Shown here one piece after another: positions 4,221-21,489 of a stretch of 64,000 bases of DNA. The notes under the pieces were generated by a model, which saw only the letters and a list, made by a program, of their open reading frames with translations, was not told where the DNA came from and made no database searches. Made by a program: the position numbers and the translations under genes. This DNA is from Flavivirga sp. 57AJ16 (GTDB taxonomy: Bacteria > Bacteroidota > Bacteroidia > Flavobacteriales > Flavobacteriaceae). The stretch is from NCBI RefSeq assembly GCF_028736925.1, contig NZ_JAQZAT010000024.1:1-64000 (forward strand), given 5' to 3'. Numbering within the stretch: position 1 is the stretch's first letter; each line of letters opens with the position of its first letter.

Positions 4221-6518
4221 TTAGTCTGTGATTTGTTTATTATGGGATGATAAAGAGAAAGGCTTGTCAGATTCATCCACACCCCTTAAGACATTTGGTG
4301 ATTTTGCCATTTCAAAATTTAATACACCTCCAGCAACCAAATCCTGATATGTAATATAATTACGGGTATACGTTTTATTATTCAATTTAGCCGATTGGAT
4401 ATACACATTGGTTTTTGAATTTCCATTGGCATTGATCACAAATGTTTTCCCGTTTTCAAGGTGTATCGTCGTTTTTTCAAAAACAGGACTTCCAATAACA
4501 TATTCATTGGTTCCTGGGCATACACTATATAAACCCATAGCACTTAGTACATACCATGACGATGTTTGGCCTTGATCTTCATCACCAGGGTATCCATTTT
4601 CTGTGGAATTATACAATTTTTCCATGATCTCACGGGCTTTTGCCTGCGTTTTCCATGGTTGCCCTGAATAATTATAAAGATAGGGCATATGCTGTATGGG
4701 TTGATTACCATGTGCATATTGTCCCATATTTGCCATTTCCATTTCTGTCATTTCATGTATTCTACCGCCATATGTCCCAACTACAATTTTATTTGAAATA
4801 GAAAAAACCGAATCTAGCTTTTTGTTAAAATTAGCCTCACCACCCATTAAATCAATTAAGCCTTTTGCATCATGAAAAACAGACCATAGATAGTGCCATG
4901 CATTTCCTTCGGTAAAAGGACCTCCCCATTCATAAGGATCGAAATTAGGCACCCATTGACCATTTTTTTGTTTTCCTCTCATAAAACCAATTTTAGGGTC
5001 GAATACATTTTTATAATTATACATTTGTTTAGAGAAAATGTCTTGATAGTATGTGTTGTTGGTCATTTTTGCTAAAGCGTAACCACAAAAATCATCATAA
5101 GCATATTCTAGGGTTTTAGCGGTTGCTTCCCTAACATCTGGATAAGGAACATAACCCAAAGTAAAATAATCCTTCCAATTGCCTCGTCCGTTAGCTGGCC
5201 CCCACGGCCCTTTATTTGTTGCTTCGTGAAAATAAGCCTCTAATGCTTTTTGGGGATCAAATGTTTTTAAGCCTTTCGCCCAGGCATCTGCTAACAGGGA
5301 TATAGCATGATTACCGATCATACTGCCAGCCTCACTGGGGAACGACCATGAAGGTAACCATCCACATTGATCGTAAGCATCTAATAATGCAGCCACATAA
5401 CGACCGTGCATTTCAGGTTCCATTAATGCATTTAACGGGAATTGACCTCTAAAAGTATCCCAAAAGCCAGTGTCGGTGTACATATAGCCTTTGTGAATTT
5501 TACCGTCGTATGGACTATAATAGTACGGTTCTCCTTTTTCATTCAATTCATAGAACTTACGAGAAAATAAACTGGCCCTAAAAAAGCAGGAATAAAAGGT
5601 TTTAAATTGTTCTTGGGTTCCTCCTTCTACAACTATTTTATTAAGTTGTTGATTCCATACATTCTTGGCTATTGCTTTTGTTGTTTCTAACTTTTTATGA
5701 TTTCCTAACTCTGATTTTAGGTTTAGTTCTGCTTGCTCAATACTAATATATGAAGAGGCAATTTTTGCTTGAACTCGTTGCTCTGGATTAAATTTTAAAT
5801 AGGCTCCAATACCTTTTCCTTCGTCAGAAACTTTAGCTTCCCATTTTTTATTGGACTCATTATTCCAAATGCCGTGCGTTGTAAAGGCTTTATCGAATTG
5901 AATTACGAAATAGTTTTTAAAGCCATTTATCCTATCCATACCTCTACCATTTCTAACATAGCCAGTAATTTTTCTGTTTTTTACATCAATGGTTATTGAG
6001 CTCGTTCCCGTGTATCCATCTATAACTAACCAGGCATTTTTTTTCTTTGGAAAGGTAAAACGTATATGCGCGCCGCGTTCTGTCGGAGCTATTTCGGTAT
6101 TTGTACCATTTTCTAATGTTACTTGATAGTAGTATGGTTTTGCTGTTTCATTGTCATGACTGAAACCTGAAGCTCTTTCTTGATCATTCAATTTAAGTGC
6201 TCCAGTGACAGGCATTAATGAAAAAACGGCATAATCATTACTCCAAGAACTGCATTGATGTGCTTGTTGAAAGCCTTTTATTTTGTCTTTGAAGTATTGA
6301 TATTTCCATCCATCACCGTTATTTCCAGTTTGTGGGGTCCAGGTATTCATCCCAAAAGGTAAAGCAGTAGTGGGGTAGGTGTTGCCCCTCGTTAATTCGT
6401 GTTTGGAGTTTGTGCCTTGTAATGTATTGACATAATCTGCCAAGTTTTTGATTTTTTGTTGTGCGATCAAAGAAACTCCAGAAAAGAGTAAAATGGGAAA
6501 TAAAATTTTAAATTTCAT
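4221..6518 (-). CDS. GH92 alpha-mannosidase, predicted alpha-1,2 type
   Basis: Exported GH92 enzyme of 765 residues and a close paralogue of the gene at 858-3155. The open frame extends 32 codons further upstream, but that extension overlaps the esterase gene. The ATG at 6518 starts a clean signal peptide (MKFKILFPILLFSG), so I chose it. Catalytic features are intact: Glu537 in FTEGNAWHY, Asp646 and Asp648 in GDEDQG, 109 residues from acid to first Asp. The RIHEM His-Glu pair that predicts alpha-1,2 specificity is present. HGNQP occurs in place of HGNEP, as in the neighbour. The two genes probably arose by duplication and flank the GH43 gene. Confidence 0.93.
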   Translation of the reverse strand: MKFKILFPILLFSGVSLIAQQKIKNLADYVNTLQGTNSKHELTRGNTYPTTALPFGMNTWTPQTGNNGDGWKYQYFKDKIKGFQQAHQCSSWSNDYAVFSLMPVTGALKLNDQERASGFSHDNETAKPYYYQVTLENGTNTEIAPTERGAHIRFTFPKKKNAWLVIDGYTGTSSITIDVKNRKITGYVRNGRGMDRINGFKNYFVIQFDKAFTTHGIWNNESNKKWEAKVSDEGKGIGAYLKFNPEQRVQAKIASSYISIEQAELNLKSELGNHKKLETTKAIAKNVWNQQLNKIVVEGGTQEQFKTFYSCFFRASLFSRKFYELNEKGEPYYYSPYDGKIHKGYMYTDTGFWDTFRGQFPLNALMEPEMHGRYVAALLDAYDQCGWLPSWSFPSEAGSMIGNHAISLLADAWAKGLKTFDPQKALEAYFHEATNKGPWGPANGRGNWKDYFTLGYVPYPDVREATAKTLEYAYDDFCGYALAKMTNNTYYQDIFSKQMYNYKNVFDPKIGFMRGKQKNGQWVPNFDPYEWGGPFTEGNAWHYLWSVFHDAKGLIDLMGGEANFNKKLDSVFSISNKIVVGTYGGRIHEMTEMEMANMGQYAHGNQPIQHMPYLYNYSGQPWKTQAKAREIMEKLYNSTENGYPGDEDQGQTSSWYVLSAMGLYSVCPGTNEYVIGSPVFEKTTIHLENGKTFVINANGNSKTNVYIQSAKLNNKTYTRNYITYQDLVAGGVLNFEMAKSPNVLRGVDESDKPFSLSSHNKQITD

Positions 6519-6537
6519 GTTATAAATTAATTTGCTG

Positions 6538-8532
6538 TTATTCAGATGTAAAGGTGGAAGCAGGTAAACCTTCTTTGTTAAATAGGGATGCTGTACTCTT
6601 GTCACTCCAAGCATATCTTACATAAACCGGGGTTGAAATGTTAGCGTTATCAACGATCACTTTTTCAGCCACAATTTTGGCGTTGGCAGGTTTATAGTTT
6701 TTATCTGCTCCGGCAATTTCAAAATTTATCAAGCCGTTTTCACCAGCCATTAATCCGCTTCCAATATTATCAAAAGAAATGATTAGCCTATTTTCTTCTA
6801 CGTCTACATTTTTAAATAATGGCCCGGATGCCACTAAATTTTTCTCATACTCATTACTAAGTGCCAAATTAGCCAAACGGTTTCCTACAGTTTCTTTTTC
6901 TGAAGGATGTATTTTAAACTCGTCTCCTATATCTAAAGTAACTACCATTCCTGTCTTTTCCGTTTCCAAAGCTAGTCGTTGTACATTTCGTAATTGTTGT
7001 GATTTATTTTTTTCGTTACCACCATAGGTAAAAGGTGCAATTTGAACAAAATAGAAAGGAAAATCAGATTTCCATTGTTTACGCCAATCTTTGATCATTA
7101 AAGGAAATAAATTTTTGTATTGTTCTGCTCTCCCCACATTAGATTCCCCTTGATACCAAATGGCTCCCTTTATGTTGTAAGGCACTAGTGGATGTATCAT
7201 GGCATTATAAAGTACATTGGGGCTTTGGGAATTTAGGTTTCTTAAATTTGGACGTCCAGACATCTCTGTATTTTCATCATAAGTAATAAATTGACCATTA
7301 AAAATATCGGCTATCAACTTTTTTTTCCACTGTCCTTCTAATGCAATGCCCCATGATTTTGTTTTGGATTTTAATTGGATTGGACCTATTATTTCCCCTG
7401 GTCCACCTGTATCTATCGCTCTAATGGCAATAGTATTTTTACCTTCTTTTAAGATTGCCTTTGAAACAGCAAATTCTCTTAAAGTATGGTGATATCCTAC
7501 GCCTACTAATCCACCAACATATTTTCCGTTAATATATGTTGCATCCATATCGTCCACCCCTCCAATTATTAAGGTATTATCATCTGGGATATCATTTAAG
7601 TTGTCTATAACAAATGTTTTTCGCAACCAAACAGCTCCATCAAATTCCTTGTTATTAATTAAATCGAAACGACTAGGTATTGTCATTGTATGGCTCCAGT
7701 TAGAATCGTCATAATCAAAATTTGCTAAGGATTCATCATTAAAGCTTAAGCTTTTCCATTCTGCTTCGGTTTGTGGTATGGATTGCTTTTTAAAATCTTT
7801 AAACCATGCTTTGGTTTTTGATTCGATGCCTGACATTTCATCCATGATAGTATTAAAATCACCCAATTCCCTTAATCCATTTTTACTTGTCCATGCCTCT
7901 GCGGGAGTGCCATTTACTGCCGATTGGATAATGCCTATAGGGACATTTAATGCTTCTTGGAGTTTCTTTGCAAAGAAATAAGCCGTTGCACTAAAATCTT
8001 CTGCTGTTGTTGGCGATGATACTAGCCATTTTCCAACAATTGAATCTTGCGGAGTCGTTGATAGTCCATAAGGAACTTTAAAAAATCGTATGTTAGGGTT
8101 TTTGGCTTTAGCAATCACATTTTCAGAATTATTAACGCTTTCGTTAGGCCAGCCTTTTAGTGGCATATACATATTTGATTGTCCTGAAGCCAGCCAAACT
8201 TCGCCTATCGCAACATCCTGAATTTCAATCTCACCATCAGAAGATTGTATTTTTATACTGTGAGGACCTCCAGCTTTGGGCGTTTGTAACTTTGTGTGCC
8301 ATTTTCCCAGTGAATCTGCTTTTGTTTCTTGGGTTGCGCCCCAACTCGCCGATATCGTAATTTTTTTATTTGTAGTGTACTCGCCCCAAACGGAAACCAA
8401 ATCTTGTTGTTGCAAAACCATGTGATCTGTAAACAATGAAGATACGGTAAGCTTTTTTACAACCGTTTTGCCATCTTGATTTTTGCAAGCGCATATGGCA
8501 CCTAAAAAAAGCAGAATCATTAATTTTTTCAT
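6538..8532 (-). CDS. SASA-family (sialate O-acetylesterase-like) SGNH esterase lipoprotein
   Basis: A 664-residue exported esterase with a probable lipobox in FLGAICAC. The SASA/SGNH nucleophile motif is GQSNM with Ser119. The second block is AIWYQGESN, and His542 lies in KIHPSEK. Residues of about 290-400 look like the galactose-binding-like insert seen in this family. Members remove O-acetyl groups from sialic acids or from acetylated polysaccharides. Beside four mannosidases, deacetylation of an acetylated mannan is more plausible than sialate work, but that is inference. Many relatives have Asp two residues before the catalytic His, while here it is Lys540. It is 18-19 bp from both neighbours in the operon. 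Confidence 0.85.
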   Translation of the reverse strand: MKKLMILLFLGAICACKNQDGKTVVKKLTVSSLFTDHMVLQQQDLVSVWGEYTTNKKITISASWGATQETKADSLGKWHTKLQTPKAGGPHSIKIQSSDGEIEIQDVAIGEVWLASGQSNMYMPLKGWPNESVNNSENVIAKAKNPNIRFFKVPYGLSTTPQDSIVGKWLVSSPTTAEDFSATAYFFAKKLQEALNVPIGIIQSAVNGTPAEAWTSKNGLRELGDFNTIMDEMSGIESKTKAWFKDFKKQSIPQTEAEWKSLSFNDESLANFDYDDSNWSHTMTIPSRFDLINNKEFDGAVWLRKTFVIDNLNDIPDDNTLIIGGVDDMDATYINGKYVGGLVGVGYHHTLREFAVSKAILKEGKNTIAIRAIDTGGPGEIIGPIQLKSKTKSWGIALEGQWKKKLIADIFNGQFITYDENTEMSGRPNLRNLNSQSPNVLYNAMIHPLVPYNIKGAIWYQGESNVGRAEQYKNLFPLMIKDWRKQWKSDFPFYFVQIAPFTYGGNEKNKSQQLRNVQRLALETEKTGMVVTLDIGDEFKIHPSEKETVGNRLANLALSNEYEKNLVASGPLFKNVDVEENRLIISFDNIGSGLMAGENGLINFEIAGADKNYKPANAKIVAEKVIVDNANISTPVYVRYAWSDKSTASLFNKEGLPASTFTSE

Positions 8533-8550: not shown

Positions 8551-10815
8551 TTAATTTTTATAAATAAAAGAAGGTGGCACATCTTCTTTAGAGCTCCCCC
8601 AATTTTTATTGGCTTTATTATCCATTATTAATTCAAGTGTCCCACCTCCCATGATATCATTATGTGTGAACCATGGCTTGCTCCATGTTTTTCCATTTAG
8701 TTTTGCTGACTGAATATATTTGTTTTCTTTGGATACATTTTTTGCGACTATGGTAAACTGCTTGCCATTTTCTAAATGAATTGTGGATTTTTCAAAAACA
8801 GGACTTCCAATAGTATACATTGGCAATCCAGGAGTTACTGGATAAAACCCTAATTTGGAGAATACCACAAAAGAAGACATGCCACCGCCATCTTCATCAC
8901 CCGGCATACCCATTAAATCATTTCTAAACCAGTCTTTTAACAGTTTTCTAATTCGCTTTTGGGTTTTCCAGGGCTGCCCCGCATAATTATATAAATATGG
9001 GATGTGTAATGAAGGCTCATTAGCCATGGTAAATTGGCCAACGTTACCTGTTTGATCTGGTAGTTGTGTATAAAACTCGCGTTTACCTCTCCCCATAGGT
9101 GTTGAAAATAAATCATTAAGATTTTGAATGAAATTTTGTTCTCCTCCCATGAGTTTTATTAAATCTGCTATATTGTGTTGTATATCCCAACGGTATGTCC
9201 ATCCATTATTTTCACCATAAGAATTACGAGCTCCAATACCTCCAGAAAAGCGATAATCAAAAGGTTCTATAAAAATACCTTCCTTATCCTTAGGATGGAA
9301 GAAATGGGTTTTTGGATTGAATAGATTACGGTAATTGAAAGATTTTTCCCTGAAATAATTTTGTTCATCTTTTTTTCCTAGTTCTGTAGCTATTTCCGAT
9401 AGACACCACTCATCATATGAGGTGCCTAATGTTACAGCGACGGGTTGGCGCTTTTCAAACGAAGAAACTTCAGGTATTGTTTCTTTTTCTCCCTCTTTTA
9501 ATGCAGGAATGTAACCGTTATCTTTATAAAATTGGTCTAATTCGCCAGCAGGTTTTCCCGACCAGGGAGCTAAAGTTTTTTGTGTAATGGCATTTTTTGA
9601 AGCTAGAAAGGCATTGTTTAAGTTAAAGTTTTTTAGTCCTTTTCGATAGGCATCAATAAAAGATGCTACTGCATGGTTTGAATTCATTCTTCTACTGTCT
9701 CCTGTAATTTCAGGAAAAGTAGGCATCCAATAATTATCCATTTGTTCAGCCATTAATAAAAAGGCATGCAAAATATCTTCTTCTTTATCTGGGTCTGTTA
9801 AAATACGTAGCGGGTGGTGTGCGCGATAGGAATCCCAAATCCAATCATCAGTATAAAAATCACGGCCTTTGTCATCATGAACCTTGCCATCAAAAGCACT
9901 AAAATACCTGCCATCTTCAGAAATACAAACGGGTCTTTCGTAACAACGATACAATGACGTATAAAATACTATTTTATCATCGTTACTACCGCCTTCAATA
10001 GTGAATTTCCCTAAGGCTTCATTCCAAATTTTTCTTCCTTCCTTTTGTAAATCCGCTATTGTTTTATTTTGGATTTCACGATCCATATTTCGTTTGGCTT
10101 GTTCCACATCAATAAAAGAAATGCCATAATTAACAGGAATGTTTTGGTTCCCCTTTTCATATTTTAAAATTAAAGAAGCATTATTTCCTCGAGCAACAGT
10201 ATTTTCTGTTAATCCGTTATTTGTATATGTTAGAACGGATTTAGGCTTTACTTGAGGTTCTAAATAGAGATATACTTTAGTATTGTTTGCTAGGTTTTGA
10301 AAGCCAGAAATGGCTTTTCCGTCCCAGAACATGTCCCCATTATGGGAATTTAAGACAAGATAGGATTCTTTATCGTTTTCAAATTGTATTTCGTAACGAG
10401 CCGATTGATGCGATATACCATAGTTTATTGAAATCTGTTGTTCATCTAGATAAACGAAATATGAATAGGGCGTAGATTTCTCTAAATCATAACTATAATC
10501 TATAATTGGTTTTAGGTTGCTTTCAGAACCTTGATAAGGGCTTAAATTAAAGGCGGAATTTCCTCGGTGACTGGTAACAACAAGAGGTAATCCGTGTAAT
10601 AAGTCCCCTGTGTAATCACCACGTTCAGGGTACACCCTTAGCATACTATTTGGTAAATGTATGGTTGGGAAAGTGGGGACTAGAAGGTGGCTTATATTCC
10701 CCATATGCGTGTTTACATAATCTACCGGTTGGGAGGTTTGTGAAAAGGCCAGATTGTTTGGCATTAACAAAACAATCATTAAAGTTGCTTTAAATATACT
10801 TTTAATGGTATTCAT
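8551..10815 (-). CDS. GH92 glycosidase, divergent specificity
   Basis: Exported GH92 enzyme of 754 residues with a signal peptide (MNTIKSIFKATLMIVLLMPNNLAFS). The acid Glu535 lies in YGENNGWTYRW, and Asp640 and Asp642 lie in GDEDGGGMSS. Both are intact, so a classical GH92 mechanism is expected. It keeps the NEP form of the later motif (MANEPSLHIPYLYN), unlike its three paralogues. Where the alpha-1,2 enzymes have a His-Glu pair it has Tyr-Thr (FYTQLPDQTG). A different linkage, such as alpha-1,3, alpha-1,4 or alpha-1,6, is therefore likely. The N-terminal half is also more diverged (PTFPTIHLPNSM). It lies between the phosphatase (39 bp) and the esterase (18 bp). Confidence 0.92.
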   Translation of the reverse strand: MNTIKSIFKATLMIVLLMPNNLAFSQTSQPVDYVNTHMGNISHLLVPTFPTIHLPNSMLRVYPERGDYTGDLLHGLPLVVTSHRGNSAFNLSPYQGSESNLKPIIDYSYDLEKSTPYSYFVYLDEQQISINYGISHQSARYEIQFENDKESYLVLNSHNGDMFWDGKAISGFQNLANNTKVYLYLEPQVKPKSVLTYTNNGLTENTVARGNNASLILKYEKGNQNIPVNYGISFIDVEQAKRNMDREIQNKTIADLQKEGRKIWNEALGKFTIEGGSNDDKIVFYTSLYRCYERPVCISEDGRYFSAFDGKVHDDKGRDFYTDDWIWDSYRAHHPLRILTDPDKEEDILHAFLLMAEQMDNYWMPTFPEITGDSRRMNSNHAVASFIDAYRKGLKNFNLNNAFLASKNAITQKTLAPWSGKPAGELDQFYKDNGYIPALKEGEKETIPEVSSFEKRQPVAVTLGTSYDEWCLSEIATELGKKDEQNYFREKSFNYRNLFNPKTHFFHPKDKEGIFIEPFDYRFSGGIGARNSYGENNGWTYRWDIQHNIADLIKLMGGEQNFIQNLNDLFSTPMGRGKREFYTQLPDQTGNVGQFTMANEPSLHIPYLYNYAGQPWKTQKRIRKLLKDWFRNDLMGMPGDEDGGGMSSFVVFSKLGFYPVTPGLPMYTIGSPVFEKSTIHLENGKQFTIVAKNVSKENKYIQSAKLNGKTWSKPWFTHNDIMGGGTLELIMDNKANKNWGSSKEDVPPSFIYKN

Positions 10816-10854: not shown

Positions 10855-11961
10855 TTATTTATCCCAATTTGTAACATTAAGTATTTTTTCAAAGATTTCG
10901 TTATTCTCATAGACCCCGATAAACTTTTCTGATCCTGGGCCATAAGCAAAAACGGGTATTAAAGTAGCCGAGTGTCCCCCTGTAGAAAAAGTGGGGCCTA
11001 TTTCACTGTAATCACTATATTCACTGCCGTCTTCTCTTTTCTTTTTCTTTGCAGCCAACGTAAATCCTCCTGTTTCATGGTCAGAAGTTACAACTACCAA
11101 TGTGTTGCCGTCTTTTTCGGCAAAGTCTAGAACTTTACCAATAACATTATCAAAATCAATTAATTCAGATATTAAATAGGGGGCATCATTATTGTGTCCT
11201 CCCCAATCGATTTGAGAGCCTTCACTCATTAAGAAAAATCCTGAGTTATCTTTGTTTAGAAACTCAATACCTAGTTCTGTTGCTTTGGAAAGAAAATCCC
11301 CTCTTCCATCTTCTATCTTGGGCATTTCTTTTTCTGCTAATAAGAATGCTACTTTTTGTGTAGATTCAATTTTTGAAAAATCACTTAAGGTATCTGTGTT
11401 GATTGTAAACTGATTATTTTTTAATGTATTTAATAAATTTTGACCATCTTTACGTTGGGTAAAATAGTTTAAACCACCACCCGCAAAAAAGTCTATTTCT
11501 GATTTTGTTAAGTGCAAGGCTATGTCTTCTTCTTGGCCTCTGTTAAATACATGAGCATAAAAACTAGCAGGTGTTGCATGGGTGATAGCACTTGTAGCAA
11601 TGACCCCTGTTTTAATATTTTTAGCAGATACGATTTCAACTATATTTTTTACGTTTTTTTTATTGGCATCCACACCAATTGCGCCATTGTAAGTTTTAAC
11701 TCCACAAGCAAAAGCTGTGGCTCCAGCAGCCGAATCTGTTACATCTTGTTCTGATGACGACGTATTTATTAAGCCGATGTTTTGAAAACGCGTATAGTTT
11801 GGTATGGACTCTTTATAATAAAAAGCAGAAGATATTTGAGATAATCCAGTGCCATCACTTATTAACAGAATAACATTTTTTGGAGCTTTCAGCTCAGCTG
11901 TTGATTTACATGAGATGAATCCAAGTATAATAAAAAACGTAATGATTATTTTAAAATTCAT
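10855..11961 (-). CDS. PhoA-type alkaline phosphatase lipoprotein
   Basis: Phosphomonoesterase of 368 residues. The open frame begins at 12042, but the first 27 codons overlap the upstream GH92 gene. The ATG at 11961 gives a lipoprotein signal (LGFISC, Cys18). Family motifs are complete: SDGTG (Asp36), VTDSAAGAT with the nucleophile Ser77, IDWGGHNNDA, TSDHETGG and TGGHSA, which together supply both zinc sites and the magnesium site. It starts 4 bp after the stop of the Gln-type GH92, so the two are probably translationally coupled. In this locus the likely substrate is phosphate left on mannose after cap removal. General phosphate scavenging is the alternative. Confidence 0.92.
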   Translation of the reverse strand: MNFKIIITFFIILGFISCKSTAELKAPKNVILLISDGTGLSQISSAFYYKESIPNYTRFQNIGLINTSSSEQDVTDSAAGATAFACGVKTYNGAIGVDANKKNVKNIVEIVSAKNIKTGVIATSAITHATPASFYAHVFNRGQEEDIALHLTKSEIDFFAGGGLNYFTQRKDGQNLLNTLKNNQFTINTDTLSDFSKIESTQKVAFLLAEKEMPKIEDGRGDFLSKATELGIEFLNKDNSGFFLMSEGSQIDWGGHNNDAPYLISELIDFDNVIGKVLDFAEKDGNTLVVVTSDHETGGFTLAAKKKKREDGSEYSDYSEIGPTFSTGGHSATLIPVFAYGPGSEKFIGVYENNEIFEKILNVTNWDK

Positions 11962-11965
11962 AATT

Positions 11966-14053
11966 TTATTTGGATGTTTGTGCTTTTGTGACAAATGTGT
12001 TTGTTGTCCCCCAGTTTTTATTAGGCACATTAGATGTTTCAATAACTAATTTACCTCCTTTTATAATATCTTCATGATGTAACCAATTCTGATTAAGGGC
12101 TTTTCCATTTAAAGTGGCAGATTTTATATAAAAATGGTCTTTATGATAGTTTTTAACTTCAATTTCAAATTTTTTACCATTGGAATAATTGATACTTACT
12201 TTTTCAAAAATTGGTGCCGTTAGGTAGTAAACAGGCGTTCCAATATTTACTGCAGATAATCCCATACTACGCATAACAAACCATGACGACATGGTTCCTG
12301 CGTCATCATCCATGGTTTTAAGAAACGCTTTAGGCAAGTTTTTGTAGATACGCCCTACATAAGGGTCTTTACCTTTACCATTGCCATAATGGTATTTTTG
12401 TACAATGGAATCTAACAATAGATTTCGAAATAGTTTTTGCGATTTCCATGGCTGTTTTGTGGCATTATAAAGGCCTGGTACTTGTAAATCTGGTTGATTT
12501 GAGGGGTTGTAGTTATTTTCAGCAAAAAATTGATCTAATTGTTTTATAAATTGTTTTTCACTACCAATTAAATTTTTAAGACCTACTATGTCAAAAGGAA
12601 CAAACCAACGGTATTGCCAAATAGTTCCTTGATATAAACCTCTAGCTTGCATTTCATCAACATCATTTCTGGTAAGGTCTGCAAAATCTTTTTCCCAGTA
12701 TTTTTTATATTCTAAAGATTTAGTATGATAGGTTTTTGCGAGTTCATCATCTTTTAAAATTTTCATTATTTTAGACGCTGCCCAAAAATCATAAGAAGAT
12801 TCCAAGGCTTTATCTGGTGAGCCAAAACTTAATTTATTTACTTCAGCAATGATTGAATCTTTAATAGAAAGAAAGTCTATGGGATAATTTTTTTCATAAG
12901 CATCCAATAAAACCACCATAGCATGTTCTGTACGAACCGTTGGGGAAGGTTCATGTTTTGTTGCCCAATCTTCTTTCCCATATTTATAGAGATTAGCAAT
13001 AGATTTTGAAATGTCTGCGTATTTATCTGGATAAATTAAAGACAACATAGGTAGTTGTTCCCTGTAATTATCCCAAATGGCCCAACCATTGTATACCATA
13101 AAATCAGCTTTTTGAATGGTTCCATTTGTAGCAGCATATGTGCCATCTTTTTCACTAATCTTGTAAGGAGATTGTAAGCCTCTATATAGAAGTGAATAAA
13201 ATAAATCTTCTCGATCTACTTCTCCTTGTACTTTTATATGTGATAGTAATGAATTCCATTCGTTATTTGAAGATTTTTTTACAGTTTCTAAATTGGTTTT
13301 ACCAAGTTTGTTTTTTGCGTATTCAATACTTACAGAAGAAAAACCAATTTGTACCGTTGCTTTTTGTGTATTTTGATTTATTGGGACATAATATTTGTGA
13401 TCACTTAATTTTTCAAATTTGTTTATATTAGAAATTTCTATAGCATAGTAAATTCTATATACGCCTCTATGGCAAGTGGTATACGTATCAATTGAACCTG
13501 AAATGACATTATTATTAATTGTATGTTCTTCAGAAATAAATCGATTAGAAAGCGCAAAAGAAAGGTCGATAAACAATCCATTCTCATCACTATCATTAGG
13601 ATAAGTGTATTGTTCTAATCCAAAATTATGATTTACACTCATGGATGCATTTATGCCATTTTTGAAGGAAACCTCATAATAACCAGGGCTAGCATGTTGC
13701 TCTTTTTTCAGTAATTTGGTATCAATATCTTTATTTAATACAGGTTTTATTAAAATATTTCCTCCACTGCCGGTACAACCTACACCTTCTAAATGGGTAT
13801 GCGTAAACCCTTCATATCTTTCTGCATAATATTCATAGCCAGTATGTATGTGTGGATTTGTTTGTGGACCTATGCTTAGCATGTTAAAAGGAGAAGAGGC
13901 AGATGGAGACATTTGCCCATGATCACCTGAACTGCCCAAAAAAACATTTACTTTTTCTGTAGGAGATGGCGTTTTGGTTTTTATTTGATTTGTTGTGCCA
14001 CAACAAACAAAAAATAGACTTAAAAGGTTAATAAATAATATTTGTTTCATCAT
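11966..14053 (-). CDS. GH92 enzyme with Gln at the acid position; candidate mannose-1-phosphate-6-mannose hydrolase
   Basis: A 695-residue GH92 lipoprotein (lipobox near FFVCC) and the first gene of the leftward operon. The base motif is intact as MDDDAG (Asp582, Asp584). The acid motif reads LYQGTIWQYRW, with Gln475 where the paralogues have Glu (TEGNSW, TEGNAW, GENNGW). From the GH92 literature I recall the same Glu-to-Gln change in the Cellulosimicrobium enzyme that uncaps mannosyl-phosphate-mannose, where phosphate leaves without acid help. The His-Glu pair of alpha-1,2 enzymes is absent because the loop before YNPSNQP is short. The alkaline phosphatase follows after 4 bp. Family membership is firm; the phosphodiester substrate is inference. 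Confidence 0.9.
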   Translation of the reverse strand: MMKQILFINLLSLFFVCCGTTNQIKTKTPSPTEKVNVFLGSSGDHGQMSPSASSPFNMLSIGPQTNPHIHTGYEYYAERYEGFTHTHLEGVGCTGSGGNILIKPVLNKDIDTKLLKKEQHASPGYYEVSFKNGINASMSVNHNFGLEQYTYPNDSDENGLFIDLSFALSNRFISEEHTINNNVISGSIDTYTTCHRGVYRIYYAIEISNINKFEKLSDHKYYVPINQNTQKATVQIGFSSVSIEYAKNKLGKTNLETVKKSSNNEWNSLLSHIKVQGEVDREDLFYSLLYRGLQSPYKISEKDGTYAATNGTIQKADFMVYNGWAIWDNYREQLPMLSLIYPDKYADISKSIANLYKYGKEDWATKHEPSPTVRTEHAMVVLLDAYEKNYPIDFLSIKDSIIAEVNKLSFGSPDKALESSYDFWAASKIMKILKDDELAKTYHTKSLEYKKYWEKDFADLTRNDVDEMQARGLYQGTIWQYRWFVPFDIVGLKNLIGSEKQFIKQLDQFFAENNYNPSNQPDLQVPGLYNATKQPWKSQKLFRNLLLDSIVQKYHYGNGKGKDPYVGRIYKNLPKAFLKTMDDDAGTMSSWFVMRSMGLSAVNIGTPVYYLTAPIFEKVSINYSNGKKFEIEVKNYHKDHFYIKSATLNGKALNQNWLHHEDIIKGGKLVIETSNVPNKNWGTTNTFVTKAQTSK

Positions 14054-14588
14054 TTTATTGGTTCTATATCAAATGGATAGTTTACACCATTATTATAATC
14101 GTAAATATTTATTTTGTAATGTACGAGATTCGCAGGTTTGTTAAGGGTTTATTTTTATTATCTAACAATAAGATGATTTAAAGTTGCTAATATATAAAAA
14201 TTTACTAAAACGATTTACTTATAATACTTGCCTGCTGTTTTAATCGTTAAAGTTTATGGCTTTGGGCCCTGAAATATTTGTTAAGATTGATTATTAACTG
14301 ATTCTGCCAATTTAGTTAAGGTCTATGGTGTTTTTTATATGGGAATTATTTAAGTGTATTAATTTAAGTTTCCCATTTTGGTTACCCTACTATGGAATAA
14401 CTGCATTTGATTATATAATGGGTTGATAGAACCTTGGAATTAGCTATATTCATTGTAAATCGGTAACGTATAGCCGCATTGATTATTAAAAGGTTTGAGC
14501 CCTTTTTTGAGTTGAAATCTAGAGCCTATACATTAACCATATATTGCGTATACGTAAATTTATTATAACTTTACACATATAATATTTT
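14054..14588. other. divergent promoter region of the polysaccharide utilization locus
   Basis: This 535-bp gap separates the leftward hydrolase operon from the rightward sigma/FecR/SusCD genes and must hold both promoters. A good rightward promoter is visible near 14544-14573. I found no clear consensus match for the leftward promoter. A spaced pair AACGATT (14209-14215) and AATCGTT (14242-14248) could be an operator but is short. Confidence 0.5.
14544..14573 (+). promoter_or_regulatory. Bacteroidota-type promoter for the sigma factor gene
   Basis: TTG at 14544-14546 is followed after 19 nt by TAACTTTA (14566-14573), one base from the TAnnTTTG consensus. Initiation would fall near 14580, only about 9-12 nt before the predicted TTG or GTG start codon. 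Confidence 0.5.
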
Positions 14589-15200
14589 TTGGTGAATTTA
14601 AAAGTTGCACATACAAAATCAACTTCTAAACGTGATCTTGAATCGGGCAAAAAAAGTGTTAAACCTCTTTCTTACAAGGAATCACAAAGTTTTGAAGCGT
14701 TCTATGCAGAGGTGTATGAAAATATGTTTCAAAACCTTTTTGCTTATGGTATGCAAATATGTAGAAATAAGGATTTAGTAAAAGATTGTATCCAAGAGCT
14801 CTTTTCTGAACTTTGGAAAAATCAAAAAATACTCGTGAATGTTAAGTCGGTAAAACCATATCTTCTAAAATGTCTTAAACGAAAAATAAAGCGAGAATTG
14901 GGCAAAGAAAAAAAGTCATTTATACAAAGTGAATTTGAATTCGAAATTTCGCACGAACTAAAGTTGATCAACAGCCAACAACAAGCCAACAATCAACATA
15001 TGCTGAGTAAAGCCATTAAGTCTTTGACTGCTCGCCAGAGAGAAGCGATTTATTTAAGGTTTTATGATAACCTTTCCTACGAAGAGACATCAGAAATTTT
15101 AAAAATCAATGCTAAAGCAACTTATAAATTGATATATAGAGCTTTGTCAGCTATAAAAGAATCTATTATTCTACTGTTGTTTTTTTCTTTTTTCACTTAA
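14589..15200 (+). CDS. ECF-type RNA polymerase sigma factor
   Basis: A 203-residue sigma-70 family factor of the ECF class. Region 2 covers roughly residues 25-95 (FAYGMQICRNKDLVKDCIQELF). Region 4 covers roughly 140-195 (LTARQREAIYLRFYDNLSYEETSEIL), with its helix-turn-helix. The frame opens with TTG (14589) directly followed by GTG (14592). No ATG precedes region 2, so one of these unusual starts is probably used. A FecR-type anti-sigma gene follows, then an STN-bearing SusC, giving the classic trans-envelope relay in which substrate binding at the outer membrane frees the sigma factor. The hydrolase and SusCD operons are the likely regulon. Confidence 0.88.
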   Translation: MVNLKVAHTKSTSKRDLESGKKSVKPLSYKESQSFEAFYAEVYENMFQNLFAYGMQICRNKDLVKDCIQELFSELWKNQKILVNVKSVKPYLLKCLKRKIKRELGKEKKSFIQSEFEFEISHELKLINSQQQANNQHMLSKAIKSLTARQREAIYLRFYDNLSYEETSEILKINAKATYKLIYRALSAIKESIILLLFFSFFT

Positions 15201-15279
15201 AAAGAAAAAAAGTTTCTTTTCCATGGGGTAAAAATTAAAAATATTGCCTGTAGTATATAAACAGTTATTGTTTATAGTT

Positions 15280-16461
15280 ATGTCAGTTAAAAATTATTTA
15301 GACTTTACTCCCGAAGAGCTCGCTTCGGATACTTACTTTCAAAATTGGGTATTACAAGATGACCAAATGACCAATTTATTTTGGGAAAAGTGGCTTAGTG
15401 ATAATCCCGAAAAACAAGCTGACGTTGATTTAGCTAGGAAATTGATTCGTCAATTCACCTTTAAGGATTATCAAGCCTCAGAAGAAGATTTTAATGAAGT
15501 ATGGAAAAATCTAAAAGAGAATCAACCAAGGAAGCCTACGTTTATCAAGCCATCTAGAAAAAGAAGGTATGCTGTAACTGCGGCAGCTTCAGTAATACTG
15601 TTAATTTCGGTTTCAGTGTTCTTTAATAAAAAAGAGCCACAATCCAGTGAACCTGTAATAGTAAATAACCATATTAAAGCAGGTACAGATAAAGCTATTT
15701 TAACCCTAGAGAACGGGGCAGATATAAGCTTGGAAAAAGGGCAAAGTTATGTTACGGGCAATATTACAAGTAATGGTGAAGAAATTGTATATGGCACCAA
15801 TAGGGAAAACTCAAAAGAAATAGCATACAATTATTTAACAATTCCTACTGGAGGGCAATTTAAAATGACATTATCAGACGGGACAAAGGTTTGGCTAAAT
15901 TCAGAATCCCAATTAAAATATCCGGTAACATTTGTAGATGGTGAATCCAGACAAGTCGAATTGGTATATGGTGAAGCTTATTTTGACGTGTCTCCAAGTA
16001 CAGAACATAAAGGTTCAAAATTCAAAGTACTAAACCAATCTCAGGAAATTGAAGTTTTGGGTACTGAGTTTAATGTAAAAGCCTATAAAGATGAAACTAA
16101 TATTTACACCACTTTGGTAGAGGGAAAAATAGCTATAAATCTAGAAAGCACTAATCAAGTATTATTTCCCAACCAACAGTCAAACGTAAATTTAAAAGAT
16201 AACAATATTGAGGTTTTATCAGTTGATGTTTACAGAGAAATAGCTTGGAAAGATGGCGTATTTAGTTTTAAAAACAAATCTCTAAAAGATATTATGAAGA
16301 TTTTATCTCGTTGGTATGAAATTGATGTGGTTTTTGAAAATAAGGAACTTGAAGATATTACTTTTAATGGTGCCTTAGAGAAAAAATTAAGCATTACAAA
16401 TATTTTGTCAATCATTGATATTAACTACGACATACATGATAAAACAGTATTGATCAAATAA
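15280..16461 (+). CDS. FecR-family anti-sigma factor
   Basis: A 393-residue inner-membrane anti-sigma protein. The frame opens at a TTG at 15244, but the ATG at 15280 (MSVKNYLDFTPEELA) is the natural start. The cytoplasmic N-terminal part would bind the sigma factor. One membrane helix follows basic residues (KRRYAVTAAASVILLISVSV, around residue 95). The periplasmic FecR domain contains IPTGGQFKMTLSDGTKVWLN, and a C-terminal DUF4974-like domain ends the protein. It lies 79 bp after the sigma gene and should be signalled by the STN domain of the SusC protein encoded next. Confidence 0.9.
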   Translation: MSVKNYLDFTPEELASDTYFQNWVLQDDQMTNLFWEKWLSDNPEKQADVDLARKLIRQFTFKDYQASEEDFNEVWKNLKENQPRKPTFIKPSRKRRYAVTAAASVILLISVSVFFNKKEPQSSEPVIVNNHIKAGTDKAILTLENGADISLEKGQSYVTGNITSNGEEIVYGTNRENSKEIAYNYLTIPTGGQFKMTLSDGTKVWLNSESQLKYPVTFVDGESRQVELVYGEAYFDVSPSTEHKGSKFKVLNQSQEIEVLGTEFNVKAYKDETNIYTTLVEGKIAINLESTNQVLFPNQQSNVNLKDNNIEVLSVDVYREIAWKDGVFSFKNKSLKDIMKILSRWYEIDVVFENKELEDITFNGALEKKLSITNILSIIDINYDIHDKTVLIK

Positions 16462-16677
16462 TAATTTTAACTAAAACATGAAATATATGGTGTGAAATAA
16501 CTAAAGAAAATGCCTATATGGCAAGACAATTTTGCTGTTAATTTATGAATATACGCTATGTTATTCACCAAATTAACATCTAAATTAAAAAGGGAAGAGG
16601 GACCGAATTCTGACATACAACCCATCACTTCCCCTTAGACGTATTAATTAATTTATTAACTAACACAGAACAAATTT
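16462..16677. other. gap between fecR-like gene and susC
   Basis: A 216-bp non-coding stretch that may hold a separate susC promoter. AGGGAAGAGG near 16592 and CACTTCCCCT near 16628 are partly complementary and could form a leader hairpin, but the pairing is imperfect. Confidence 0.35.
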
Positions 16678-19600
16678 ATGGAAATTAAATTTACATATAC
16701 TCTTTTGACTAAACGAAAAAGAGTGTTGACTTTCATTATGAGAACGTTTATATTGTTATTCTGTACATCCGTATTTAGTTTCTCATCAGGGAATCTCCTG
16801 TCGCAGAATACTAAAGTTGTCATTGGTACAGATATGACAGTGACTATAGAAGAAGTTTTCGATATCATTGACCAACAAACTGATTTTTCTTTTATTTATA
16901 GATCAGATTTATTTAAAGACCTACCAAGGGTTGAACTTAAAAAGGGGCGTTTTCGACTTAGCAGACTGTTATTAAAAAGTGTTGATAGTAAGGATTTTAA
17001 TTTTATTCTAACAAAAGATAATAGAGTAATAATTAAAAAGAAAACCCCTGAAGACAAAAAACAACAGATCAAGGTTACGGGTACTGTAACCGATGAAAAA
17101 GGATTGCCACTTTCAGGTGTGACGGTATTAATTAAGGGGACAATCAAGGGTGCCGCTACAAATTTTGATGGCCATTACAGTATTACTGTGCCATTTTCGG
17201 AAAATGTCTTGGTTTTTTCTTTTTTGGGCTATGAAACAAAAGAAATCCTAGTAAAAGACCAAACTGTGATCGATGTTCGGTTAAAAGAACTAATTACAAG
17301 TCTGGATGAAACTGTTATTATTGGTTATGGAAAAGTGAAAAGGGAAAACTTAACAGGTTCAGTAGGTACTATTGATGCTAAAAATATAACCAATCAAGTA
17401 CCAACCATTAATCTTGACTATGCACTACAAGGTCAAGTAGCAGGTGTTAACATTACTAGTTCCTCAGGTCAACCAGGAGGAGCTGCAAGAGTAAGAATAA
17501 GAGGGAATACATCTTTATTAGGATCCAATCAACCTTTGTATGTTATAGATGGTATTCCTCTAGCTCCCAATAGTAATATACCTAATGGTGGACCAGAAGG
17601 AAATAATTTAGGAACAGAACTTAATCAGGAAGGTTTAAGTACACCTATTGGTAATATCAACTCCGCAGATATTGAGTCTATAAGTATTTTAAAAGACGCA
17701 TCAGCTGCAGCTATTTATGGTTCCAGAGCTGCAAATGGTGTTATTATTATTAATACCAAGCAAGGTGTGTATTCAAATGAGACTAAGTTTGATGCTACAG
17801 TATCTATGAGTTTTCAAAATGCGCAAACCCTAGAAGTTTTAAATGCACAACAATTTAGAGAAGTTTGGACGGCAGCTGTAGAAAATGGAACGAGAAACGA
17901 TGCCTTTGCCCAAGCTGTTTTAGATGGTTCTTATTTTGGAGATGCAGATACTAAGTGGGAGGATGAAATTAGCCCAGGCTCACCAATTACAACAAACTAT
18001 TATTTGAATGTGCTTGGCGGGTCGGAAAACACCAGGTATAGTACATCATTGGGTGTTAATACTCAAGATGGGGTTTATAACAAAACAGGTTTCGATCGCT
18101 ATTCTTTCAACCTAAATTTGGACACTAAAATCAGTGAAAATTGGACGTTTGGCTCTAGAATAAATGTTTCATCAACCAAACAAGATGCTAAAGATGGAGG
18201 TCTTACACAGCTTACTTATAGTTTTAGACCAGATCTTCCTGTTTTTGATGAAGAAGGCAATTACTCATTTTCATCACAATATAACTCTGAAAACCCAGTA
18301 GCACGTTCTAAAGCGACCAACACTAACAAAACACTTTTGTTATTAGGTTCTATGTATACCGAATTAAAATTAGCAGAAGGATTAAACCTTAACACACTTT
18401 TTTCTCTTAACTATAATGCAGGTAACCAACAAAGTTTTTACCCACTTTTTACATTTGTAGGAGGTTGGAGTAGATTACAAGGTAATGGTGATGGTTATGC
18501 GCAAGAAAGTAGAAGTCGCAGTACTAATACTTTACTACAAGGTACACTAACTTATGATAAGTTAATTGAAAAGCATAATATTAATGCTGTATTAGGAGCC
18601 TCTTTTGAAAAAAATAAAAGCTCTAATGTAAAAGGATGGGGAGAAGGTTTTTTTAATGATGTATTAACGAATGTTTCAAGTGCCACTGTATTTACAGATG
18701 CATCGTCTTTTGAAACTGGTTCTGGTTTAGCGTCATATTTTGGACGTGTTAATTATGATTTTGATAATAAGTACTTATTAACGTTATCCGCAAGGGTAGA
18801 TGGATCTTCAAAATTTGCTCCAGATAATCAATATGCCTTTTTCCCAGCAGCAGCAGTGGCATGGAGGATATCAAATGAAGATTTTTTGAGTGAAAGCAAT
18901 TTTGTAGACGAATTGAAACTTAGGGCCAGTATGGGAACAACTGGTCAACAGGATTTTGGGGATTATGCATGGCGAACCCTTTTTGAGACTGAAGATTACG
19001 GACCAGATCCGTCTATTATTGCATCTCAGTTAGGCAATGCCAGTTTAAAATGGGAAACGACGGAGCAAGTTGATTTTGGTGTCGATTTTTCTTTTTTTAA
19101 AGGAAGGTTTCGTGGCGGTTTTGGGTATTATTTAAAAGAAACAAAAGATGCTTTGTTTACTGCTATAACCCCAGGAAGTACTGGGTTTAACAGGATAATC
19201 GCTAACATTGGAAATACCAAAAACACTGGTTTAGAGCTAGAATTAAAGGGGGATGTTATAAGATCTCAAAATTTTAGTTGGAATGTATCATTGAATGTAA
19301 GTAAAAATGATAATAAGTTAACTAAAATCTCAGATGACTTTAGGGATGATAATGGATTCTTAACAGGGTTTCCAGGAGGAGGAAGGCTTAAAGAAGGTAG
19401 TCCAATTGGGTTGATTTATGGCTATGTTTCCGAAGGACTTTTTCAAAATCAAGAAGACATAGATGTTTTGAATACAGCATCACCTACAGGAACATATCAA
19501 AATAGTCAAACAGCTCCTGGAGATATAAAGTTTAAAGATTTAACAGGTCCAGATGGTGTTCCCGATGGTGTAATTACAGCTTTAGACCAGCAAGTTATTG

Positions 19601-20124
19601 GAGATACACAACCAGACTTTTATGGAGGTTTTAATAATACATTTCAGTACAAAGGATTTGCTTTGTCTACATTCTTCACTTTCTCTGTAGGCAATGAGGT
19701 AGATTCATTTAGCTTAGCAAGAGATACAAACTTTGCCAGCACTTTTATTGGTGAAAACAAAGTAACAAGTGTTTTAAATGCTTGGACACCAGAAAACACC
19801 AATACTGATATACCAAGATTGGTCTATTTTGATCCAAATAATAATGATAGAATATCTTCCCACTATGTTAATAATGCTTCTTATTTAAGGTTAAAGACAT
19901 TAAATTTTAGCTATACATTTTCAAAACAGTCATTAGAGCAGATTAAATTTTTTGATAACATTTCAATTTATATAACTGCCCAAAATTTATTTACAATAAC
20001 AAATTACCCAGGAGCGGATCCAGAAGCTTCAAATTTGTTTGGCAATGATATTAGTGCAGGAAGGGACAACAATCGCTTTCCTATAGCAAAAGTATTCACT
20101 GCAGGTATAAGAATAGGATTTTAA
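16678..20124 (+). CDS. SusC/RagA-type TonB-linked outer membrane receptor with STN domain
   Basis: An 1148-residue outer-membrane transporter that imports oligosaccharides with its SusD partner. Domains in order: a signal sequence (MRTFILLFCTSVFSFSSG), an STN domain (about 55-110, VTIEEVFDIIDQQTDFSFIY), a carboxypeptidase-regulatory-like domain (about 123-205, GTVTDEKGLPLSGVTVLIKG), a plug domain (about 210-345, with the SusC signature GYGKVKRENLTGSV), then the beta-barrel ending TAGIRIGF. The STN domain touches FecR and carries the signal to the ECF sigma factor. The ATG at 16678 puts 21 residues before the signal core, common in this group; MRTF at 16738 is the alternative. SusD follows after 12 bp. 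Confidence 0.94.
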   Translation: MEIKFTYTLLTKRKRVLTFIMRTFILLFCTSVFSFSSGNLLSQNTKVVIGTDMTVTIEEVFDIIDQQTDFSFIYRSDLFKDLPRVELKKGRFRLSRLLLKSVDSKDFNFILTKDNRVIIKKKTPEDKKQQIKVTGTVTDEKGLPLSGVTVLIKGTIKGAATNFDGHYSITVPFSENVLVFSFLGYETKEILVKDQTVIDVRLKELITSLDETVIIGYGKVKRENLTGSVGTIDAKNITNQVPTINLDYALQGQVAGVNITSSSGQPGGAARVRIRGNTSLLGSNQPLYVIDGIPLAPNSNIPNGGPEGNNLGTELNQEGLSTPIGNINSADIESISILKDASAAAIYGSRAANGVIIINTKQGVYSNETKFDATVSMSFQNAQTLEVLNAQQFREVWTAAVENGTRNDAFAQAVLDGSYFGDADTKWEDEISPGSPITTNYYLNVLGGSENTRYSTSLGVNTQDGVYNKTGFDRYSFNLNLDTKISENWTFGSRINVSSTKQDAKDGGLTQLTYSFRPDLPVFDEEGNYSFSSQYNSENPVARSKATNTNKTLLLLGSMYTELKLAEGLNLNTLFSLNYNAGNQQSFYPLFTFVGGWSRLQGNGDGYAQESRSRSTNTLLQGTLTYDKLIEKHNINAVLGASFEKNKSSNVKGWGEGFFNDVLTNVSSATVFTDASSFETGSGLASYFGRVNYDFDNKYLLTLSARVDGSSKFAPDNQYAFFPAAAVAWRISNEDFLSESNFVDELKLRASMGTTGQQDFGDYAWRTLFETEDYGPDPSIIASQLGNASLKWETTEQVDFGVDFSFFKGRFRGGFGYYLKETKDALFTAITPGSTGFNRIIANIGNTKNTGLELELKGDVIRSQNFSWNVSLNVSKNDNKLTKISDDFRDDNGFLTGFPGGGRLKEGSPIGLIYGYVSEGLFQNQEDIDVLNTASPTGTYQNSQTAPGDIKFKDLTGPDGVPDGVITALDQQVIGDTQPDFYGGFNNTFQYKGFALSTFFTFSVGNEVDSFSLARDTNFASTFIGENKVTSVLNAWTPENTNTDIPRLVYFDPNNNDRISSHYVNNASYLRLKTLNFSYTFSKQSLEQIKFFDNISIYITAQNLFTITNYPGADPEASNLFGNDISAGRDNNRFPIAKVFTAGIRIGF

Positions 20125-20136
20125 AAAATTATAATT

Positions 20137-21489
20137 ATGAAAAACACAACAATATACTTAGTTACATTACTTCTTTTGTACTCATGTGAATTAGTAGATG
20201 TATTAGAAAATGATCCGCCTAACAATTTAGTTGCTGAAAATGTAGTAAAAAATGAAACAGATGCCAGAGCTTTATTAAATGGTGTATACACGACTATTAC
20301 ATCCAGAGTTTCAGCATACTATTACATGTATTCTGAGTTGATACCCAGTGCTATGATAGGTTCCATGAGTGTTTCCGGCGCAGGTTCAATACATGGGCAA
20401 TTTTCAAATAATGAGGTACAGTTTGATAATATTTTTGTAAGAGATTATTGGTTGATTATATATAAGGTTATGGATTTGGCAAATAATTCAATAGTTCAAA
20501 CATCTCAATTATCTGATCAATTGATTTCTGATGAAGTTAGAAAAGAGCTTCTTGGCGAAGCGCACTATTTAAGGGCAATGGCAACTTTTGATGCGTTAAG
20601 GTACTTTGGACAATTTTTTGATGAAACCAGTAACTTAGGTATTATATTGCATACCGAGCCCTCAAACTTTGTTACTAGACACAAAGCCAGAAATACGGTT
20701 GCAGCATGCTATACCCAAATTTTATCGGATTTAGATAAAGCCATTGCAGATGCACCAGATTATACAGTTACATACAGGGCATCTAAAACAGCTGCTAAAG
20801 CGCTAAAATCTAAAGTGTTGCTCTATCAAGGTAAATATGCTGAGGCTGCTGCTTTAGCAGATGAAGTTATTAACGAGGGAACTACGACTCTTGAAGCTGA
20901 CTTTGAAACGGCGTTTAGTAAAGGGTTAAATTCATCAGAAATGATTTTAATGACTTATCGTGATGAAAATTCAGATTCTGAGGATAACAACAGAAAACGT
21001 TTTTACACAGGTAGAACCTCAAATAGTACTTGGTTCGCTACGCTAATGGATAGTGACCCAAGAAGACCATTTACATATAGTGGTACTACGGTTTTGAAAA
21101 CCAATAATGCAGCTGTTTATAGGCCAACTTATTTTTTACGTTTAGCCGAAATGTATTTAATAAAAGCTGAAGGACTGGCGTTTAGTGGAGCTACGTTACT
21201 GGAGGCAAGTGAGCCTTTAAATGTTATACGAAACAGAGCTGGTATTGGAGATTCACCTGCCCTTACCATAGACGAACTTAAAGATGATATTTTTAATGAA
21301 ATTGCTAGAGAACTGGCTTTCGAAAATGGTAGTGAGTGGTTTGCAGCCATTCGCTTTGATAAAGCCATGACATTAAAACCCACAATTACAAGTTCAAACC
21401 AATACATTTTACCAATTCCAGAAGAAGAAATTAATGGAAACGGGTCACTTACTCTCGCAGATCAAAACCCAGGTTACGAAGGTATTTAA
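20137..21489 (+). CDS. SusD/RagB-type glycan-binding outer membrane lipoprotein
   Basis: A 450-residue lipoprotein (LLLYSC, Cys17) of the RagB/SusD family that caps the SusC barrel and binds the glycan at the cell surface. The N-terminal region has the usual NNLVAENVVKNETDARALLNG segment. TPR-like helices follow (LLGEAHYLRAMATFDALRYFG). The C-terminal region has FLRLAEMYLIKAEGLAFSG and RNRAGIG. It is slightly shorter than many SusD proteins. It is cotranscribed with SusC 12 bp upstream, and a strong terminator follows 30 bp after the stop, so the unit ends here. Confidence 0.93.
   Translation: MKNTTIYLVTLLLLYSCELVDVLENDPPNNLVAENVVKNETDARALLNGVYTTITSRVSAYYYMYSELIPSAMIGSMSVSGAGSIHGQFSNNEVQFDNIFVRDYWLIIYKVMDLANNSIVQTSQLSDQLISDEVRKELLGEAHYLRAMATFDALRYFGQFFDETSNLGIILHTEPSNFVTRHKARNTVAACYTQILSDLDKAIADAPDYTVTYRASKTAAKALKSKVLLYQGKYAEAAALADEVINEGTTTLEADFETAFSKGLNSSEMILMTYRDENSDSEDNNRKRFYTGRTSNSTWFATLMDSDPRRPFTYSGTTVLKTNNAAVYRPTYFLRLAEMYLIKAEGLAFSGATLLEASEPLNVIRNRAGIGDSPALTIDELKDDIFNEIARELAFENGSEWFAAIRFDKAMTLKPTITSSNQYILPIPEEEINGNGSLTLADQNPGYEGI

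Follow-up and report, generated by a model that had tools for sequence, protein, structure and literature searches.

A glutamine-type GH92 gene of Flavivirga predicted to decap mannose-1-phosphodiesters, its adjoining PhoA-type phosphatase gene and its wider DUF218 neighbourhood

How might a GH92 enzyme act when the glutamate expected at its general-acid position is a glutamine, and what is to be made of a phosphatase gene that follows it almost without a gap? The question is raised by a stretch of 64,000 nucleotides from Flavivirga sp. 57AJ16 (contig NZ_JAQZAT010000024.1, positions 1 to 64,000; hereafter the window), in which a GH92 gene of this kind, here called GH92-Q, precedes a gene for a PhoA-type alkaline phosphatase. 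The original prediction, made from the DNA letters, took the two for a phosphomannan decapping module that would remove a mannosyl cap and then the exposed phosphate before ordinary GH92 enzymes trim the glycan. The observation behind it is confirmed and the interpretation of the enzyme is a good one; the reading of the pair is over-general, and a wider pattern involving DUF218 proteins is more interesting.

Both GH92 domains are found above the Pfam cut-off in GH92-Q, the catalytic one (PF07971, 2.3e-84) and the N-terminal one (PF17678, 3.5e-34). Where the family has its general-acid Glu (Glu533 in BT3990), GH92-Q has Gln475; CcMan5 of Cellulosimicrobium cellulans, itself classed in GH92, has a Gln there too. 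PMC5930347 gives the catalytic acid as Glu533 in BT3990 and Glu535 in BT3130, describes CcMan5 as acting on Man-PO4-Man phosphodiesters, and mentions one enzyme for mannosylphosphate decapping. The three GH92 paralogues in the window carry Glu, as predicted, at residues 542, 569 and 535 when numbered from the first ATG of each open reading frame (ORF); the earlier value of 537 for the second of them would be explained by a start 32 codons downstream of that ATG. The base motif DDD (residues 582-584) was likewise found intact.

Among sequences of the Protein Data Bank (PDB), the top phmmer match of GH92-Q is CcMan5 (4AQ0/2XSG, 2e-62), with LYQGTIWQYRW aligned to LYQGTLWQYHW; in these alignments the counterpart of Gln475 is a Gln in CcMan5 and the Glu of the EGN motif in 7ZGM, BT3130 and BT3990. 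A predicted model of GH92-Q (m50b8a6807d39; mean confidence, pLDDT, 88.7) has 2XSG as its top match in a fold search (TMq 0.87, with 0.77-0.82 for the other GH92 chains listed), and ranks 1-39 of that search are GH92 structures throughout. When 98 GH92s of the window and the fetched loci are aligned with MAFFT, the acid position holds Gln in 82/82 rows of the Gln clade (one per locus, comprising 80 loci from a scan, the locus G025 and the window) and Glu in 16/16 others; Asp584 is kept in 98/98 rows and Asp582 in 94/98. No other Glu fills the acid position in the alignment. Gln475 occupies the general-acid position of GH92, on the joint evidence of the phmmer alignments, the MAFFT alignment, the fold match of the model and the motif of a sister clade described below. 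The prediction that this is the Glu-to-Gln change of the enzyme that cleaves mannose-1-phosphate-6-mannose has held up, in that the Gln matches that of CcMan5 by sequence, fold and tree.

Relatives were gathered in one scan of genome contigs with the patterns YNGWAIW and TIWQYRW, both of which lie close to residue 475 and leave it outside; the best 80 of 183 were kept as loci. The names among them include Maribacter, Zunongwangia, Flavobacterium, Leeuwenhoekiella, Mucilaginibacter, Pedobacter, Hymenobacter, Chitinophaga and Labilibaculum, with one record labelled Thalassovita. The window's family gives a match at 1e-140 in 14 of 397 genomes, the window's own included. By identity, eight of these 14 hold a Gln-type gene (62-65%, or the window itself) and seven a member of the sister clade (37-41%), with one genome counted in both groups; several of the eight Gln-type matches are loci already among the 80. 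The Gln-type gene is patchy in its distribution, since the 11 remaining genomes of the window's genus all lack a Gln-type match.

Two trees were built, one of 63 rows and 428 columns (26 hand-picked Gln-type proteins, CcMan5 and 36 Glu-type proteins), the other of 72 rows and 426 columns, which adds the seven sister-clade proteins and two Gln-type ones (28 in all); CcMan5 is represented in both by only those stretches aligned in its phmmer match. In each tree the Gln-type proteins and CcMan5 form one clade with a bootstrap of 100, apart from the Glu-type GH92s. The second tree gives the sister clade (seven rows) a bootstrap of 100, and the Gln-type proteins, CcMan5 and the sister clade together (36 rows) one of 95. 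The sister clade (L126-L132) has the acid Glu in 7/7 members and reads GLYEGTLWQYRW, the motif being otherwise the same.

Four residues, Arg374, Glu376, Thr477 and Gln524, are common to the Gln-type, CcMan5 and sister rows and are found in 0/36 other Glu-type rows. According to PMC5930347, a Cys (399, 392 or 393) marks the -1/+1 subsite boundary in GH92, being Cys399 in BT3130, and the +1 contacts in BT3990 are His584 and Glu585. Thr372 of GH92-Q aligns with the Cys of the BT3130 motif CMIGN, which is Cys399 by residue counting, and Arg374 and Glu376 therefore sit just past the -1/+1 border in sequence. Counting residues in the BT3990 alignment places His584 and Glu585 in a loop of eight residues in 28/28 Gln-type and 7/7 sister rows, of 16 in CcMan5, and with a median of 24 (range 8-32) in the 36 Glu-type rows.

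Because the sister clade carries the Arg, Glu and Gln changes together with the acid Glu, these changes predate the Glu-to-Gln replacement. The simplest history would have the +1 site altered first and the acid lost later, in the common lineage of CcMan5 and the Gln-type enzymes, and such an order would fit a charged leaving group. Three readings of these residues were given up. Arg374, Glu376 and Gln524 seemed at first to be exclusive markers of the Gln type (0/36 Glu-type rows), and were dropped as such because the sister clade has them with Glu475; Glu376 was dropped as a simple replacement acid, as the sister clade has it beside the acid Glu; and Gln524 is no substitute for His584 of BT3990, as counting puts His584 and Glu585 in the preceding, shortened loop. 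The sister-clade loci (SusC/SusD) also contain GH28-like and second GH92 genes, with Pfam matches on single members to PI-PLC-C1 (L127) and GH125 (L129), and phosphoinositol-type or glycosylphosphatidylinositol-like glycans may be the target of that clade.

The best explanation overall, to which we give a probability of about two in three, is a SusC/SusD-linked operon for a glycan capped with mannose-1-phosphodiesters, in which decapping would be followed by the action of PhoA and then by trimming by Glu-type GH92s. The target would be mannose-rich. GH92-Q, as a member of the CcMan5 clade, would act on Man-1-P-R as an inverting hydrolase, freeing the terminal alpha-mannose by means of the Asp base and with no acid help; since phosphate leaves readily, the protonating Glu would be dispensable. 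Arg374 and the shortened loop, which in ordinary enzymes belongs to the leaving-sugar site, probably accommodate and hold the phosphate. PhoA, encoded next, would hydrolyse the exposed phosphomonoester, and the freed alpha-mannosides would then be trimmed by the Glu-type GH92s. The predicted decapping of a mannose-1-phosphodiester by GH92-Q is well supported; we infer the activity, the phosphate contacts, the substrate (with fungal-type phosphomannan as first candidate), the order of the steps and their cellular site. Mannose-1-phosphate-6-mannose occurs on yeast glycans, as PMC5992200 records, and the GH76 genes on other contigs of the genome (four matches to the GH76 profile over the cut-off) make fungal-type alpha-mannan a reasonable substrate to consider first.

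Seven consecutive minus-strand genes run from 14053 to 858 of the window, in the order GH92-Q, PhoA, Glu-type GH92, SASA-type esterase, Glu-type GH92, GH43-like glycosidase and Glu-type GH92 (Table 1). The junctions measure 4, 39, 18, 44 and 37 bp, and at the remaining, sixth, junction the ORFs overlap as called; the sigma/anti-sigma and SusC/SusD genes lie divergent from the run at 14589-21489. Gene order, like catalytic positions, clade, fold and conservation, is established computationally. Promoter and terminator scans of 11800-14650 gave matches at or below chance. Past SusD, in the same orientation, 21668-27307 holds genes for an outer-membrane beta-barrel with a CarboxypepD_reg domain and then an M16 peptidase.

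Table 1. Features of the GH92-Q locus and codons of interest within GH92-Q, in window coordinates
Feature	Coordinates	Strand	Remarks
GH92-Q (Gln-type GH92, 695 aa)	11966..14053	-	first gene of operon-like run; predicted mannose-1-phosphodiester decapping enzyme
Codon of Gln475 in GLYQGTIWQYRW	CAA, 12629..12631	-	general-acid position, Glu in ordinary GH92
Codons of Asp582-Asp584 (DDD base motif)	12302..12310	-
Codons of Arg374-Glu376 (in PTVRTE)	12926..12934	-	candidate phosphate site
Codon of Gln524 (DLQVP)	12482..12484	-	His in 35/36 other Glu-type rows; distinct from His584 of BT3990
PhoA-type alkaline phosphatase, 368 aa, likely lipoprotein	10855..11961	-	PF00245 1.1e-75
Glu-type GH92, third gene	8551..10815	-
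SASA-type carbohydrate esterase	6538..8532	-	PF03629 2.7e-17; weak GH2 sugar-binding PF02837 6.6e-05, below cut-off
Glu-type GH92	4221..6614	-
GH43-like glycosidase	3193..4176	-	PF04616 2.6e-48
Glu-type GH92, final gene of run within window	858..3155	-
Sigma-factor and FecR anti-sigma genes, divergent	14589..16461	+	PF08281, PF04773, PF16344
SusC/SusD pair adjoining operon	16678..21489	+	TIGR04056 1e-258; PF07980 2e-20

The ATG of PhoA lies at 11961, four bases past the TAA of GH92-Q (11968-11966), which is the predicted spacing. The protein is, as had been proposed, a PhoA-type phosphatase with all its metal motifs, the nucleophile Ser being present as well and the elements SDG, TDSAAG, THATPASFYAH, EGSQIDWGGHNND, SDHETGG and GGHSA standing at residues 35, 75, 127, 247, 293 and 328; it is identical to the alkaline phosphatase 2IUC, which we take to be the TAB5 enzyme, at 262/365 aligned positions. 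Both proteins had been thought to be lipoproteins, which by eye is borne out by a good signal in PhoA (GFISCKS) and left uncertain by the weaker one in GH92-Q (FFVCCG). A lipobox pattern is found in 18/82 Gln-type GH92s, the pattern being crude and missing some forms.

Recurrence of the pair is limited to a few related genomes. The tight order is kept in Confluentibacter sediminis (5 bp gap) and Maribacter polysiphoniae (10 bp gap), and the GH92 at the two loci concerned (L060 and L033) is 77% identical to GH92-Q and the PhoA 76% to that of the window; a Glu-type GH92 gene comes next at both. RelA/SpoT is 92-96% identical to the window's in the 11 congeners, 84% in Confluentibacter sediminis and 75% in Maribacter polysiphoniae, which sets both relatives outside the genus, so that the PhoA-bearing loci represent three genera. 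The family search supplied 11 further stretches (seven of them sister-clade, two repeats of scan loci), none with a match to a TAB5-like PhoA, and a literature search, made largely without subscription papers, found no published account of the pairing. The coupling to PhoA is genuine but rare. The GH92 enzyme is of a known type, and its pairing with PhoA is an uncommon form of a broader pattern that is less well understood. Elsewhere in the genome, two more PhoA homologues (46% and 44%) lie about 6 kb apart (G000 contig C3:44788-52693, in L032).

For the survey of partners, an operon-like run was taken as genes on the same strand with gaps up to 300 bp, and neighbours were clustered by blastp single linkage, with Pfam applied to the representatives only. 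Forty hand-picked loci among the 80 supplied 39 genomes for comparison, and the Glu-type control was the best 150 of 333 GH92 matches in these, some being fragments of one gene. Counts within 10 kb use the 144 controls that lie more than 15 kb from a Gln-type gene (with all 150 counted, GDPD occurs once and PF00245 four times), and the p values are rough because relatives are not independent. DUF218 lies within 10 kb of 21/39 Gln-type and 0/144 Glu-type GH92s, and GDPD within 10 kb of 5/39 and 0/144. A DUF218 protein is present in 46 of the 82 loci, 35 times in the operon-like run itself; SusD is in 50 of the 82 runs, and 33 combine SusC, SusD, DUF218 and GH92. The general partner of the Gln-type GH92s is DUF218, not PhoA. 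Phosphoesterase clusters named by Pfam are found in 21/82 runs (GDPD 13, PhoA 3, PI-PLC-C1 2, both in Hymenobacter, Exo_endo_phos 2 and purple acid phosphatase-like 1).

Individual loci vary in their gene content. At L031 (8948-10315) and 45 other loci DUF218 is the main neighbour of the Gln-type GH92, often in a run of SusC, SusD, DUF218 and GH92. In Leeuwenhoekiella (L044, L047, L048, L055) the gene stands with a sulfatase, an esterase, an MFS transporter, a 3-keto-disaccharide hydrolase and Gfo/Idh/MocA oxidoreductases, a set that a phosphatase route does not obviously fit. At L104 (5530-15602) it stands between a sodium symporter/GH130/GlcNAc 2-epimerase-like set and an ATP-grasp/Alpha-E/transglutaminase set.

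The DUF218 partner is a protein of roughly 420 aa which, to judge by eye from its signal-like N-termini, looks secreted. The model of the L040 protein (pLDDT 89.2) is helical in front and alpha/beta at the back, the latter part being weakly YdcF-like; the sensible match in its fold search is YdcF (3CA8, E 0.036, probability 0.99), with no match at E 0.001, and the DUF218 profile has none among PDB sequences at 0.01. His302, Glu310, Glu313, Arg336, His337, Thr338-340 and Arg343 are invariant in 31/31 rows. According to PMC12176290, a Thr/His/Glu triad is required for the function of SanA, a relative in E. coli to which no reaction has been assigned. The literature search found no paper tying DUF218 to polysaccharide utilization. 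It may tentatively be suggested, as a possibility with the odds somewhat against it, that the Gln-type GH92s belong to a widespread mannose-1-phosphodiester system of the Bacteroidota in which a second phosphate-handling enzyme takes the decapped product, the slot being usually filled by DUF218 and, in the window and two relatives, by PhoA; DUF218 proteins (SanA/ElyC/YdcF) would then act on phosphoesters or sugar phosphates. If true, such an activity would bear on the role of the family in envelope glycan synthesis, and the link makes the function of the family testable on a defined substrate.

A number of observations weigh against an operon for decapping, PhoA action and trimming. GH92-Q is 24% identical to CcMan5 over the fold alignment. 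The sister clade, with its normal acid Glu, also has Arg374, Glu376, Gln524 and the short loop, and some Glu-type rows also reach a loop of eight residues, so that neither the group residues nor the loop is proof of phosphodiester cleavage. Pfam identified no GH76 within the window operon, and no measured activity of any Bacteroidota Gln-type GH92 came to light in the literature search with its few subscription papers. PhoA adjoins the Gln-type gene in 3/82 loci (the window, L060 and L033), and PF00245 lies within 10 kb of 2/39 Gln-type and 2/144 Glu-type genes (p = 0.20), which is no enrichment; on these counts the idea of GH92-Q and PhoA as a general module is not supported, and PhoA was dropped as the defining partner. 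DUF218 or a named phosphoesterase is present in 51/82 runs and neither in 31/82. Counter to the phosphate theme, sulfatase-family clusters occur in six runs, 3-keto-disaccharide hydrolase clusters in six, mostly beside Gfo/Idh/MocA genes, Gfo/Idh/MocA clusters in seven runs and GH130 at two loci; the Glu-type control covers DUF218, GDPD and PF00245 only.

An unlikely alternative is that GH92-Q is a mannose-1-phosphodiesterase for Man-1-P-glycerol, -inositol or another alcohol of protist, algal or bacterial phosphoglycans, with PhoA, GDPD or PI-PLC-like partners processing the other side of the phosphate. The GDPD clusters (13/82 runs), the PI-PLC-C1 clusters of Hymenobacter and the two of Exo_endo_phos speak for it, as do the 33 runs of SusC, SusD, DUF218 and GH92, many without a second glycosidase cluster among neighbours that are partly annotated; with GDPD and PI-PLC-like partners, the phosphate may in other loci link mannose to glycerol or inositol. 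In the window and the two relatives closest to it, on the other hand, the gene has Glu-type GH92s around it, a setting that suits a larger mannan or an N- or O-glycan. That decapping is real while PhoA acts on unrelated phosphomonoesters, another enzyme taking the downstream phosphate step, would agree with the Gln-type loci that do without PhoA and usually have DUF218; but the spacing of 4, 5 and 10 bp persists across three genera, and two further PhoA homologues in the genome could cover general needs; this reading too is improbable. Very unlikely is a GH92-Q that is a slow ordinary alpha-mannosidase or an acid-less binding protein, with PhoA an ordinary phosphate scavenger in the operon by chance: although PhoA is unenriched near Gln-type genes, the Gln, the base Asp and the group residues are conserved across 82 loci, the clade is shared with CcMan5, and PhoA is kept directly downstream in three genera. 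The capped-glycan operon remains the preferred reading of the window.

The active-site type of CcMan5 now corresponds to a well-defined clade, often found in SusC/SusD operons. From this clade come a predicted route for dismantling phosphorylated mannans and candidate enzymes with which mannose-6-phosphate glycans might be produced; for the acid residue, the sister clade and its Glu at that position are the natural comparison.

Among characterised systems, CcMan5 (2XSG, 4AQ0) is the closest to GH92-Q. The two share the acid-position Gln in an LYQGTxWQY motif, equivalents of Arg374, Glu376, Thr477, Gln524 and Asp582/584, and membership of one clade, and CcMan5 is the best match in both sequence and fold. 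They differ in the +1 loop (16 residues in CcMan5, eight in GH92-Q), in that the activity is measured in CcMan5 and predicted for GH92-Q, and in their hosts, which presumably belong to different phyla. CcMan5 also carries a CBM32, unlike GH92-Q, as PMC10167667 indicates. The Glu-type alpha-mannosidases BT3990, BT3130 and BT3965 have the same fold and base Asp motif, but possess the acid Glu, His in place of Gln524 in 35/36 rows, neither Arg374 nor Glu376 in 36/36, and mostly a longer +1 loop. The sister clade, at 37-41% identity, shares Arg374, Glu376, Thr477, Gln524 and the eight-residue loop with GH92-Q in 7/7 members and differs by its acid Glu. As for the phosphatase, all motifs are common to 2IUC and the window's PhoA, which is encoded directly behind GH92-Q.

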